NCBI GenBank assembly: GCA_021234155.1
Contig: JAJEKV010000010.1
Coordinates: forward strand, 15,444,275 to 15,508,274
Source of the DNA: Isoetes taiwanensis
Taxonomy: Eukaryota > Streptophyta > Lycopodiopsida > Isoetales > Isoetaceae
Direction of reading: 5' to 3'
Length of the DNA: 64,000 nt
The notes under the pieces were generated by a model that made no database searches, had not been told where the DNA came from, and saw only the letters and a program-made list of their open reading frames with translations. Shown piece by piece: positions 40,320 to 62,213 of this stretch; position 1 is the first letter of the stretch; every line of letters starts with the position of its first letter. Made by a program: the position numbers and the translations under genes.

Positions 40320-40351
40320 TGTATGTTATATACATACACCTATTGTATGTT

Positions 40352-42329
40352 AATAGAATCTTGGAATTAGTGAACGTGAAGAAACTGTTTGCTACATGTT
40401 GTGATCAAGTACTAAATTTAGAGAACCCAACAATAATGGATGAGATTGTATATGGCTGGAAATATCTTCCTAGCGTGAAATCATCATGGTATAAACCAAA
40501 GGACACATTCTGCAACTTCTCATGTTATGAGAGTTTGAATTGCAAATGTGCAAATGAAATCTGGTTTAAGCCTTTCCTACAAAAAGGAGAAGATGAACTT
40601 GAGCATGTCATATCCCTCTCTATAAATATTTGCCTATACTCTAGGGAGAATATAAAATATGGTTTGAATCATATCCCCTTAGAGAAACCTAATAAGGGTA
40701 TTGTAATTATGGAAGTACTCAAAGCATGGGAGCAGACAGTAGTATATTTGGAAAATAAGGTGGGAAGAATATGCCCAACTAAAATTGAAAAGGCTAGGTC
40801 CTTTATCAAAAATAAAATCAAGCATTGGGTAGAAGAAGGAAGCTCGAATAAAAGAAGAAGAATTCGGATTCCTGATAAAACAATGACATATGAGGCAATT
40901 GCCGAAAAAACATGGATACAACAACATTTATTTATATCTGGAGCAGATAAAGGCGGATAATAACACACGGTATTCATTTGCAAAAACTATATAAGAAAGT
41001 TGGCCTTAAAAAAGGGTTGGTAGCCCTGACTTTGAGATGTGTGTGGATGAAGATGGGTTCCCAAGATCCCCACTAGCAATTAGAGATAAATGTCGACATG
41101 ACATGGAAAATATTGCTGGGAATGTTAAGGTGGAGAACTTGGGATTACCATATTTAATGGGAACATATAAAGCACACAAGAACAAATTTAGATGGCTGAC
41201 AAATGCATCGGAATGTATATTTTCAGATATGGCTTGCCTAATTACGGAGGTCATAAAATCATTTGTACCAACATTCAATGAAATATGCTACCAATTGGAT
41301 TCCAAGGTAAAACGATTTATGGGAGTTAAGACTAGGTCATTGTGGTGGATTAATTCAACGATAGAGCTGGCTATCAATCTACCAGAGGACATACACCATA
41401 CATGGGTGGCAGACATAGCAAGGTGCTATGAATCTATACCATTATTTGGTGACGATGGGATTACAACTATATGCGAAAGGCTCTTCTCCAAAGTTTTTGA
41501 AATAAGGTATCCTCAAAGATTAATTGGGTCTGGGAGACCTTCATCGTATAAATATACATGGAGAAATACTACCCAGACAACCAAAAATGACTTTGAGATA
41601 ACACTTGAAGAACTGGTTACAATAAACAATTACTTACTTACCAATTGTTATGTTCAGGTGGGAGACAGAGTATGGAAACAAATAAGAGGCATCCCAATGG
41701 GATTTTCATGTTCACCATTGTGGTGTAACATTTATCTTATGTTCTATGAATTTAACTTCATTAAGAGATTAGCAAAGTTGGGAAAAATTGAATATCTCAT
41801 TCTGTTCAAGGATGCATTTAGATACATGGACGACCTTAGTATATTCAATAATCCACAGATGGATTTATTTGTGGACCCAACACAACCGAGGGTAGCTGAC
41901 AACCCTTACTGGATTTATCCATTGGATTTCCTTGAGATTAAAAAGGAAGAAGCACCCCAAATATTTCCCCAATATGATTTGGGATTACCGAAATGTAATT
42001 TCCTGAACATGCATGTGCAGATTATAGACCAAGTTTATGGATCTTACATTACGACCAAATTTGATAAGAGGAGGTCGCTTCCATTCCCGTTTATTCAATA
42101 CATACAGTTGGCATCTAATAGGAAAATCAGCCAATGTTATAATCTTATGATCCCTCAGGTGATTTTATTGTTGTATTTATGTAAACGTCCAGAGGAATTC
42201 TTGGTAGAAATAAAGAAGACTATAGGGGTGTTCAAGAAGAATGGTTTTTCGGTACAAAGGCTTATGACTATTGTTAAAAAAGCGATTGTTAATGCAAATA
42301 TCTTAGGGGCTCCTATGGAAAAAAAATGA
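40352..42329 (+). pseudogene. Reverse transcriptase, Naiad/Chlamys-type Penelope-like (P1)
   Basis: Two frames joined by a one-base shift at about 40961, with two stops shortly after (near 40996 and 41011). First part (to 40960): CKCANEIWF finger-like piece, IKYGLNHIPLEKP, WIQQHLFISGADKGG. Second part (41037-42329, 430 residues): LPYLMGTYKAHKNKFRWLTN at 38-57, motif A VADIARCYESIP with Asp126, GIPMGFSCSP at 218-227, FRYMDDLSIFNN with YMDD 263-266, then FLNMHV and TTKFDKRRSLPF thumb motifs. Motif order and wording (DKGG/DKA, KxHK, GIPMGxxCxP, FRYxDDLSIxNN, FDKR) match Naiad/Chlamys Penelope-like RTs as I know them rather than LINE or LTR RTs. No GIY-YIG domain lies in the readable part. The RT core is nearly intact. 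Confidence 0.82.
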
Positions 42330-43906
42330 AGGATATAAAAGTGTTCTGATTGAAAAACTTGTGGAAGTTGAAGTATAGGCCTACCTGATTATAGATGTGG
42401 GGCATGCATAGGCTTGGATGTCCAGAGATAATTTCGTATTTTAAGTTCCTAATATTTATGAGATACTGGAGAGATTGCAAAGGTTTTTATGTTTTTATAA
42501 AAATATCATATTGGAGCATGGCATGCCAACTGGCAAAAACCCTATGGTCCGGACGGATAGGCAAGAACCCAGGGGGTTTTATGGCATTCTAACCATGTAT
42601 GTGGCCGATTCTCCCAATGTTGCATTTAACAGGTCTGTAGAAGTTTTGAGTTGCATCTTGGGCTTACAGACCATGTAGATGGAACCGGGAATCTTTGGGA
42701 TAAAGCAAGACGGTTACCAGTGTATGAGATCAAGCATCCAATTGCAGGTTAGAAGGATCGCTTAGTAGATTGGAGAACACAAGTTCTTAATCTTCTTGAA
42801 TCTAAGATGTAATTTACGCATTTCTGTTTGCTTACTCCGAGAAAATGGGTTTCGAATCAGATCAGAGAATACCTCTTGGGGAATTAAGCCACAAGGATTA
42901 TGTAAGAGCTTTAATTTATTATGGATTCAAGCTCATGAAATTTGATAGGGAATGATTCGATGCATTTAGTATGATACTGGGTTATGCCATAGACTATGCT
43001 AACCCGATATTTTCAAAAAACATAAGGAACCGAATACATGGATAATAGGCCCGAGGAGATGGGAGATTCAAGCTATATGGAAATAGAGGAAGATCCCGAT
43101 CATGTCCTAGACGATAATCGGGTTAGATATTATGATATTAAGTGGTTAAGCCATTATGATATTAAGTGGTTAAGCCAGGCGGTAGAAAATATGAGATGGA
43201 ATTATGTCAAAGTTATAGGATGGAGATGCACGACAACTTAAGCGGTCCAATCTTAAGTTAATTTTGCTAGACCTATATGGTAGAGCTTTCGATGTAATGC
43301 TCACGGACCATGTTATAGGTTAAAGCAAACATAAACAAAACACTGCAGTGAGCTGGGTTGTAAAAGCTCATAGCTCAATGCACGTAGCTATAATTGTAGA
43401 TTGATAAGTAATTTAGGGAAGATTTTACTTGGTAAATTCTTAAATGTTTATGGAGATGTGATGGAGGTAGATTAACAATGTTTTTTCATAGAAGCTCTTG
43501 CATAGCATTATGGGTTTAAGGGTGTAACGTGAGAAGAAAATCTGAGTCAACACATAGCATGATTGATTAAGACTACCTTAAATACTTGTTGATATCCATG
43601 ACACCGATAACAAGGGGGGTTTCATAAAAAGCATTGACACCTGTCTTCCCATTCCATGCATCTGTACTAACACATGTTCTTTGGTTTGGATGGTGACAAA
43701 GTTAGCTTTTCCCACCGGATCTGAGAGGATAAAATTTAAGTGTAGATCAATTTAGGATCATGCTTGGATTTTTACATATGACTCAAAAAACTACAGCAAG
43801 ATGCTTAAGATCTATGATATTGTAAGATATAAATACTCACACCCATAGTAAGATTTCTGCAAGGCTAACTATAATATGGATCCCCTATAGGGAGGTTGCC
43901 AAGAAA
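42330..43906 (+). other. Region downstream of the P1 RT, broken coding
   Basis: Protein-like words occur in shifting frames: GFYGILTMYVADSPNVAFNR (about 42574-42633), FELHLGLTDHVDGTGNLWDK and RLPVYEIKHPIAG (about 42650-42750), DRLVDWRTQVLNLLESKM (about 42760-42810), and GELSHKDYVRALIYYGFKLM (about 42880-42940). I do not recognise the family. The G-F-Y...Y-V-A...R pattern loosely recalls a GIY-YIG nuclease, but the gap is shorter than usual. A short direct repeat (TATGATATTAAGTGGTTAAG) lies at 43132-43173. Confidence 0.35.
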
Positions 43907-61062: not shown

Positions 61063-61253
61063 GGATGAGGTCAGACTTTGTTCTTATTATTTTTTTCAAG
61101 TACTTTTTCAATTAACGACCATAAGTTATGTATTTGTCTTAACTTCAGTTATAGGATCCTTAAACTATTATATAACATATTCTTCAAGTAAGTTTTACTT
61201 CCTGTTTAAGTTGTCATCCGACCCTCACTAATTCCTAAACATAATTCCAACAG

Positions 61254-62213
61254 GAGTTGGAGCAATACCCTTGTAGATGGCTTGTACAAGATCTGAATAA
61301 TAGGGTTTCCATTCAGACGGATAATGGAAATGAGAAAAAACTGACCGTGCATCTCACTTATGTGTCTAGGCTCATGGACTCTATTAAATTCAAAGATATT
61401 CTAGAACAAGTCGTTCCTCTATTTTGTGGAGAAAACGGTGCTACAGCCCTTAGTAGAACAGTACTAGGTTGGAGATATTTGCCCAAACTAGTAGACTTAG
61501 TTTACAAACCATTCAACACATTTGTTGGTGAGGCTACTCCTAAATGCCCCTGCTCCAGTCATGCACTCAAGAGATATATTGATCCCACACACAGGCATGT
61601 CCTTACTACTGATGAGAACATTGTCCAAAACAGAAATCTTAGGAATCTGTTTAAGAAAGGCTTGAATCATGTCCCTCATAGAAGACTGGAAATGAATGAA
61701 TGCATGATTACTGTTCTTGAAGGATTAAGAACTTTTTTTGCATTACATAGGTTTGATATTAAACCTATAGACGAACATAGATATAAATTCATTGAGACAG
61801 CTGCCCGTGAAAGAGCTCTGGGTATGATGAAAGAATACTTGAAGGGAGAAGCTGGTAATATTCGCCATTATATTCTAGAGGAAGACGAAGATGCTCTTAA
61901 AGATCTTGAATGGATTAAAAGGAACCTATACGTGACAGGAGTGGATAAGGCCACGAATAATCCCAGTTTTATGTGTCCTTTTCTTGCCAAATCACTTGCT
62001 TTGGAAAGACTTAACAGTCCAGATTTCATATCTTCAAAGAGGTCTGTACATGAAATTCTAGATGAGGCGTTGCATAAAATACTTGGTTTATGGAATTTCA
62101 ATGAAGAATTGGTGAGTGACCGCCCTTTGCCTTACCTGCTTTGCATCTATAAAGCACATAAACACAGTCTTAGATGGATCACGAATGCACATAACTCCGT
62201 GGTTCTACTATGA
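61254..62213 (+). CDS. Penelope-like RT, N-terminal part (P2), truncated by insertion
   Basis: Open from an acceptor-like TTCCAACAG (61245-61253), reading ELEQYPCRWLVQDLNN. Downstream: a finger-like CPCSSHALKRYIDPTHRHV at about 97-115 (CxC plus His), NLRNLFKKGLNHVP at 127-140, LYVTGVDKATNNPSFMCP at 224-241, and LPYLLCIYKAHKHSLRWITN at 291-310, then a stop. It aligns with the first part of P1, including the KAHK motif, so it is the same family. Catalytic motifs A to C are missing because the AGATTC element A2 begins at about 62214. The CxC finger and DKA word support the Naiad/Chlamys-type assignment. The copy is dead as a polymerase unless the remainder lies beyond the window. Confidence 0.78.
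   Translation, partial: ELEQYPCRWLVQDLNNRVSIQTDNGNEKKLTVHLTYVSRLMDSIKFKDILEQVVPLFCGENGATALSRTVLGWRYLPKLVDLVYKPFNTFVGEATPKCPCSSHALKRYIDPTHRHVLTTDENIVQNRNLRNLFKKGLNHVPHRRLEMNECMITVLEGLRTFFALHRFDIKPIDEHRYKFIETAARERALGMMKEYLKGEAGNIRHYILEEDEDALKDLEWIKRNLYVTGVDKATNNPSFMCPFLAKSLALERLNSPDFISSKRSVHEILDEALHKILGLWNFNEELVSDRPLPYLLCIYKAHKHSLRWITNAHNSVVLL

Follow-up and report, generated by a model that had tools for sequence, protein, structure and literature searches.

Penelope-like elements are the retroelements nearest to telomerase, and within them the Naiad/Chlamys clade is recognised by a CxC motif between the N-terminal part and the reverse transcriptase (RT), an N-terminal GIY-YIG endonuclease, an insertion-in-fingers domain, pseudo-LTR tandems and a bias towards insertion at microsatellites; the Chlamys endonucleases are N-terminal and are without the CCHH motif. 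Chlamys elements reportedly occur in spike mosses, the group is said to be present in the green lineage and, going by this, a land-plant host is not new for it. Chlamys also appears in Ectocarpus, according to an excerpt of a further study (PMC12477816). As set out in excerpts of two sources (PMC11167929, PMC3846280), canonical Penelope/Poseidon elements show partial tandems, 5' truncation, tolerated introns and internal RT initiation, and the known ones carry a C-terminal GIY-YIG and a hammerhead ribozyme. The conifer Dryads are GIY-YIG-bearing Penelope/Poseidon elements that presumably arrived by horizontal transfer, and the endonuclease-lacking Athena/Coprina kind sits largely at chromosome ends with telomeric repeats (excerpts of PMC9033089 for both and of PMC3846280 for the latter).

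The elements described here were found in a 64-kb stretch of DNA from the quillwort Isoetes taiwanensis, referred to as the window, and comprise two copies, P1 and P2 (Table 1), compared below with loci fetched from the same genome (L numbers). Like Naiad/Chlamys elements, the Isoetes units combine a CxC linker before a Penelope RT with pseudo-LTR tandems, possibly microsatellite sites, and a host of the green lineage, whereas they have no recognised GIY-YIG in the frames searched, have an upstream ORF1 instead and live in a quillwort. They share partial tandems and 5' truncation, and would share introns and internal initiation, with Penelope/Poseidon, of which neither the C-terminal GIY-YIG nor the ribozyme was found here; with the Dryads they share a land-plant host but not the endonuclease domain. 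The reading preferred here, with a probability of roughly 0.7, is that P1 and P2 are degraded copies from two families of a lycophyte Penelope-like branch, probably near Naiad/Chlamys, that has no recognisable GIY-YIG, carries an unrelated Cys-rich ORF1 upstream of the RT and may spread by the mechanism proposed below.

Table 1. Features of the two element copies and of their flanks in the window.
Feature	Position	Strand	Remarks
P1 5' flank	40221..40319	.	(TA)n array at truncated end
P1 copy, 5'-truncated within RT N-terminal region	40320..43661	+	Full L046 unit is 97% identical, 40328 to 43661
P1 RT N-terminal region	40343..40957	+	CxC (NCKC) and GLNHIP present
P1 RT core and thumb	41010..42326	+	KAHK, ADIARCYESIP, GIPMGFSCSP, FRYMDD, FDKR
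P1 3' extension	43662..43928	+	First ~265 bp of next tandem unit; stops at (AT)n array
P1 3' flank	43911..44085	.	(AT)n array
P2 5' flank	55735..55907	.	(AT)n array where P2 unit begins
P2 unit, 5' part	55898..62204	+	56586-62204 is 97.6% identical to L047
P2 putative first exon	56884..57150	+	Basic MAPKRGRG... start; frame broken here; splice reading tentative
P2 ORF1, 547-aa open frame (59419-61059)	59424..61059	+	Cys-rich, CPYFKCAC..C..WFDQGIW; putative start at 59424 (after CAG)
P2 putative intron/spacer, ORF1 to RT frame	61060..61253	+	By eye, from CAG
P2 RT, N-terminal half only	61254..62204	+	CPC, GLNHVP, VDKATNN, KAHK, RWITNA
Repeat X, minisatellite-bearing, interrupts P2 RT gene	62200..63871	+	

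Taken as a whole, P1 (40320-43925) is a broken, 5'-truncated copy with (TA)n arrays on both sides, its reading frame breaking at about 40955-41015 and its similarity to L046 continuing past the unit junction of that locus, up to 43925. The motifs quoted in the preliminary description were confirmed in open frames: P1 (40187-40960 and 41010-42329) carries CKC, GLNHIP, KAHK, ADIARCYESIP as motif A, GIPMG, YMDD and FDKR, and P2 (61245-62213) carries CPC, GLNHVP, VDKATNN and KAHK. That description had missed the (TA)n flanks of P1 and, in P2, the ORF1, the start of the unit at about 55898 and its interruption by a different repeat near 62200. At its beginning, P2 (55880-56447) has 98.6% identity with the beginning of the following unit in L047, the segment between 56447 and 56586 falling beyond the locus fetched. 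A second repeat, R (48890-52013 and 52764-55855), was considered as a pseudo-LTR of P2 and dropped because L047 places the start of the P2 unit downstream of R. Repeats X and R likewise adjoin (TA)n.

P1 and P2 had been taken for two copies of one element, which does not hold: they are homologous (joint tblastn E 5e-18) but share only 24-25% of their residues, and in a tree a 99% relative of P2 was separated from P1 with support of 100/100, long branches being flagged. Searches of the I. taiwanensis assembly (1,658,258,908 bp) gave at least 100 matches to the P1 core and at least 125 to the P2 RT piece, with stop-free frames of 600 aa or more in at least 20 and at least 68 of them, respectively, as counted by eye from the match lists, and no place was shared between the two sets among the matches listed. 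Sequence comparison assigns the degraded copies P1 and P2 to separate families within a large and diverse Penelope-like group with long stop-free RT frames at 88 places or more. The suggestion that the RT is nearly intact and possibly recently active finds backing in relatives elsewhere in the genome but not in the window, where P1 is broken and P2 interrupted. The window also contains a plant-type kinase fragment, recognised by Pfam. This fragment, the 24.5-Mb contig in which the window lies and the spread of relatives over many contigs all speak for a land-plant host, as the preliminary description had it, and against contamination from an alga or animal.

The Penelope-like nature of the group is supported by several features. 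Motifs A, B, C and [FY]DKR were present in 14/14 RT cores examined (the table of motifs has 15 rows, that of P2 in the window stopping short of the core), and the CxC linker in all 11 rows that cover the region, four rows beginning downstream of it and those of L041, L042 and L027 being near-identical and so not all independent. In L046 a truncated copy (1340-3527) directly precedes a complete unit (3528-9182) with which it shares 96% identity, and L043 holds direct repeats of at least 1483 bp with 97% identity; L040, L044 and L045 gave no resolved tandem within the stretch fetched. Additional same-strand RT pairs, spaced 5.4-5.9 kb apart, were seen among the P1-core matches listed. The truncation and 3' extension of P1 are of the same Penelope-like character. 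With E values up to 10 allowed, 11 of 13 RT members were matched by Pfam RVT_1 (the best with E 1.5e-5), P1 itself falling below threshold (E 4e-4, 20.6 bits against a cut-off of 29.6 bits), and the RT profile had no match in the PDB at E up to 10. Single-sequence AlphaFold models gave no reliable fold for the P1 core or for P2 ORF1 (mean pLDDT 35.3 and 34.5). For the RT N-terminus and ORF1, nothing useful came from PDB, PHROGs, PADLOC or NCBIfam. The hammerhead core pattern was matched 3 times against 8.7 expected by chance, no hammerhead appeared among Rfam matches up to E 5, and no relative was found in the viral contigs scanned or, with an approximate Naiad fragment as query, in the prokaryote contigs scanned.

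That the RT belongs instead with LTR, LINE or group II RTs, or that the contig is contaminated, has a very small probability. Its attractions are a weak NCBIfam match of P1 to a group II model (E 0.006, with 15.7 bits where the cut-off is 300) and weak RT matches in PHROGs and PADLOC, while hhalign gave 0.1-0.5% with the longest frames of four RVT_1-found loci of the same genome, which are of LTR type by eye, a comparison confined to that type, and Pfam scans of 13 RT and 4 ORF1 frames were devoid of LTR-element domains. Within the Penelope-like elements, a relation to Naiad/Chlamys, as the preliminary description proposed, is probable, judging from the CxC linker, a small number of junctions at microsatellites and one profile match. 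In that match, hhalign of the RT profile against the Naiad fragment gave 96.7% (E 3e-10) and 0.1% with the fragment reversed, the fragment being approximate and chosen after P1 had been seen, and the match a lead only.

No GIY-YIG had been noted where one was expected, and wider searches bear this out. Pfam found none, with E allowed up to 10, in 13 RT frames and 4 ORF1 frames, nor any in the P1 and P2 pieces, and a regular expression matched nowhere in six frames of the window or in frame in L040-L045; a nuclease in ORF1 that had diverged strongly would escape such searches. The reading of L047 covered open frames alone, and 704 bp remain downstream of the RT there. A GIY-YIG-like string in L044 was rejected, being out of the ORF1 frame and followed by a stop. 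The same Pfam model found at least 121 other sites in the genome (150/263 candidates scored). It is unlikely that a very divergent GIY-YIG lies inside ORF1 or on an unseen exon and that the elements are of the ordinary Chlamys type: ORF1 does sit upstream of the RT, where the Chlamys endonucleases, N-terminal and without CCHH, would be looked for, yet the blank Pfam and in-frame pattern searches stand against this, as does the ORF1 profile, whose one match in the PDB is unrelated (E 0.76). The genomic GIY-YIG sites, many in short frames, might alternatively be stand-alone genes of other repeats acting in trans, and one of them, in L048, is 6.5 kb from an RT frame. This is most improbable, given that a frame of another repeat stands between the two in L048, that L049 and L050 have no RT of this group by tblastn (3/121 loci opened) and that 1/121 sites has an RT less than 8 kb away, among the matches listed.

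In place of a GIY-YIG, ORF1 was found upstream of the RT in 8/9 testable units, broken in four, and was not recognisable in L040. It is Cys-rich, with an RG-rich tail in 2/4 aligned proteins, and may act in an RNA-protein particle. ORF1 and RT may be joined by splicing: the CAG from which the spacer of P2 was read stands where four relatives have a pyrimidine-rich CAG. A script filter did not flag it in P2 or L047, and in the 8 ORF1 loci, scanned from 150 bp before the ORF1 end, none of the donor-like sites ahead of the ORF1 stop was in phase with the RT boundary.

The 3' junctions lie at (AT)n in P1, (AT)8 in L046 and (CA)n in L043, and at just a short TA-rich stretch, not a long array, in L042; thus 3/4 placed junctions adjoin dinucleotide arrays of at least 16 bp, to be read against 12 such arrays per 64 kb in the window, a sample of four junctions and the presence of other repeats at (TA)n. 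These sites bear on the idea that the elements are of the endonuclease-lacking Athena/Coprina kind, adding to exposed chromosome ends. The frames searched have no GIY-YIG, as in that kind, and endonuclease-lacking elements are tabulated for Selaginella moellendorffii and conifers, Athena/Coprina being reported from both Selaginella and conifers (excerpts of PMC9033089 and PMC3846280). This idea is decidedly unlikely, however, as telomeric repeats were absent from the 50 loci and the window (~315 kb), the full units fetched are interior to eight contigs with lengths of 0.55-29.5 Mb, microsatellites adjoin three of the 3' junctions and the CxC linker, a mark of Naiad/Chlamys, is present.

For the interior units of the preferred reading, a mechanism can be proposed. 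Tandem units would be transcribed, and ORF1 and RT would form an RNA-protein particle; the RT would prime from a 3' end within (TA)n or (CA)n repeats, where the DNA has been nicked or broken by something other than a fused GIY-YIG. Synthesis beginning at a variable template position would leave 3' extensions, and early stops would leave 5' truncation and partial tandems. Target-primed synthesis and this origin of the cut are inferred. Going further, and only tentatively, with the odds against it, a land-plant branch may have lost its GIY-YIG and now spread in chromosome interiors in high copy number, with ORF1, as a new family, serving either as a new nuclease or as a guide that takes the RT to microsatellites with breaks or nicks.

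Penelope-like elements in plants are known only patchily. The word 'Penelope' is absent from the main text of the I. taiwanensis genome paper and from the I. sinensis paper, and a literature search combining Isoetes with Penelope-like elements returned only papers on other subjects, going by titles and the openings of abstracts. If the reading given here is true, a quillwort has at least 88 places with long stop-free RT frames, from at least two deep lineages, that have no recognisable endonuclease, and simple repeats stand at the ends of several copies. Such a genome would be a natural system for studying how an RT of this kind reaches its target and whether something else can stand in for an endonuclease.

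Penelope-like retroelements form a genuine, abundant group in the genome of the quillwort Isoetes taiwanensis, a lycophyte, with at least two deep lineages and an unusual architecture. The reverse transcriptase (RT) frames named in the preliminary description are present in P1 and P2, the two Penelope-like elements of the window, and open frames of 439, 322 and 547 codons would be far beyond chance expectation for DNA of such composition. Motifs A, B and C as well as FDKR were found in P1, which Pfam RVT_1 matches weakly and under its cut-off (20.6 bits, E 4e-4). P1 is homologous to P2 (joint tblastn E 5e-18), but their description as two copies has to be abandoned: they are only 24-25% identical over ~210-230 residues and represent two families. 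Both window copies are themselves broken.

With the P1 core as query, a genome search gave at least 100 matches, 36-100% identical, from 96 scored of 3441 first-look candidates, and the P2 RT piece returned at least 125, 34-100% identical, from 124 scored of 3040 candidates. Counted by eye, stop-free frames of at least 600 aa occur in 20 of the 100 P1-core rows listed and in 68 of the 125 P2-RT rows listed; the lists are ordered by likeness to the query and their low-identity rows may belong to a lineage other than the query's. Indeed, locus L045 was retrieved with P1, yet groups with the P2 relative, and no place is common to the two long-frame sets among the matches listed. That relative, the closest to P2 among the matches listed (C996:11479183, locus L047), is 99% identical and has a 712-aa frame bearing RT motifs. 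A tree built from 14 RT cores separates it, together with L045, from the other 12 rows, including P1, with support of 100/100, albeit with long branches flagged there.

Unit structure was read in ten loci, L040-L048 and that of P2. A further frame, ORF1, lies upstream of RT in 8 of the 9 testable units (L041-L047 and P2), although it is broken in L042, L044, L046 and L047; none was recognised by tblastn in L040, and L048 has too little upstream DNA for assessment. Four aligned ORF1 proteins have W, C and D residues in common, placed on either side of and within a stretch rich in Cys that ends in WxDxxxW; an RG-rich tail is seen in two of these proteins. The sole Pfam match to ORF1 was a weak one to DUF4528 (E 0.03, one of four members), and a PDB search gave nothing but one unrelated match (E 0.76). 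A pyrimidine-rich stretch plus CAG adjoins the start of the RT frame in L041, L042, L043 and L046 (by script) and less clearly in L040, L045, L047 and P2 (by eye), which suggests a putative intron boundary, but no matching donor site was found. PMC3846280 reports a spliceosomal intron in a Penelope copy.

No GIY-YIG endonuclease pattern occurs in the six frames of the window, the only match in L040-L045 is out of frame, and Pfam at E up to 10 detected none in 13 RT and 4 ORF1 frames; L046 and L047 were covered by open-frame reading only. Across the genome the Pfam GIY-YIG model has at least 121 sites (150 of 263 candidates scored), and in the three loci opened (L048, L049 and L050) the frames stand alone. 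Because none of the pattern, Pfam and opened-locus searches showed one within units, the units read are without a recognised GIY-YIG, and ORF1 could hold a divergent one. Short stand-alone GIY-YIG genes are many in the genome and may represent another mobile element family. Their neighbour is either a frame that by eye reads as a PIF1-like helicase, as in L049, or a similar frame of unnamed type. The GIY-YIG gene in L048 is 6.5 kb downstream of a Penelope RT, and a frame of another repeat intervenes.

In L046 a 5'-truncated copy is joined directly to a full unit, the two being 96% identical, L043 contains direct repeats that are 1483 bp or longer (97%), and further same-strand pairs spaced 5.4-5.9 kb are found among the P1-core matches listed. 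This organisation resembles that of published Penelope elements, for which PMC8969392 describes 5' truncation, partial tandems (pseudo-LTRs) and short 3' extensions. The 5' truncation of P1 falls within the coding region of the RT N-terminus and its 3' part extends ~265 bp into the following unit, as if reverse transcription had started at another site than in L046. P1 ends at a dinucleotide array, as do L046, at (AT)8, and L043, at (CA)n, whereas the end of L042 abuts no more than a short TA-rich stretch. Since the window has just 12 arrays of at least 16 bp per 64 kb, three of four 3' junctions at arrays is unlikely by chance, although four junctions are few and other repeats of the window, X and R, also abut (TA)n. 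Telomeric repeats were absent from 50 loci and the window. Repeat X (~1.5-1.7 kb) has an AGATTC-type minisatellite inside; one copy has (TA)n on either side and another is inserted in the P2 RT gene. The two 3.1-kb copies of repeat R are 96.6% identical, each with a terminal (AT)n array and no frame above 141 aa, and partial relatives (75-95%) lie downstream of P1.

Coordinates of features in the window and in related loci
Feature	Position	Remark
P1 RT	40343-40957 and 41010-42326	two frames, broken at ~40955-41015
P2 RT frame	61245-62213	
P1 3' extension	43662-43925	
(TA)n array	40221-40319	left of P1
(AT)n array	43911-44085	right of P1
Repeat X	62200-63871; 14273-15735; L009 3350-5022	
Repeat R	48890-52013; 52764-55855	
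Repeat R relatives	from ~44080	
Tandem in L046	1340-3527; 3528-9182	truncated copy; full unit
Stand-alone GIY-YIG	L049 3-2712; L048 6944-9128	L049 is C1078:2855500-2861500
Kinase fragment	8373-8675	Pkinase E 2.7e-9
Purine-rich region	16000-28000	~12 kb
Inverted repeat	35969-36214	imperfect
GDSL-like frame	L042 7862-8173	element orientation

The protein-kinase fragment of the window reads, by eye, like a plant receptor-like kinase. Just past the 3' end of the L042 element, a frame resembles (by eye) a plant GDSL lipase/esterase at its beginning. The purine-rich region contains (AG)n tracts as well as tandem repeats of 110 bp and is strongly asymmetric between strands, and the inverted repeat, perhaps a MITE-like hairpin, matches the MIR7486 family below gathering score on both strands.

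Craig et al. (2021) reportedly described the Naiad/Chlamys clade, to which the preliminary description assigned P1 and P2, by an N-terminal GIY-YIG, CxC, an insertion-in-fingers domain and a microsatellite bias, with Chlamys reportedly in green algae, spike mosses and slime moulds. Every row that covers the region before RT carries the CxC motif (11 of 11, three of them near-identical); the other 4 of the 15 rows begin downstream of that region. An RT profile of 12 rows, nine kept by hhalign, aligned to a Naiad-type fragment over 132 columns (96.7%, E 3e-10). The profile reached 0.1% when that fragment was reversed and 0.1-0.5% with four LTR-type frames from this genome, and P1 alone matched the unreversed fragment by BLASTP at E 2e-8; these matches are a lead only, because the fragment was written out by hand with P1 already known. 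Chlamys is also reported in Ectocarpus in PMC12477816. Judged by these marks, the group would work like Naiad/Chlamys and is probably related to that clade, but a GIY-YIG, one of the features that define the latter, was looked for here and not recognised, and the group is therefore not filed as a member. What is new here is the absence of a recognisable endonuclease, together with ORF1, the quillwort host and how many long stop-free frames there are.
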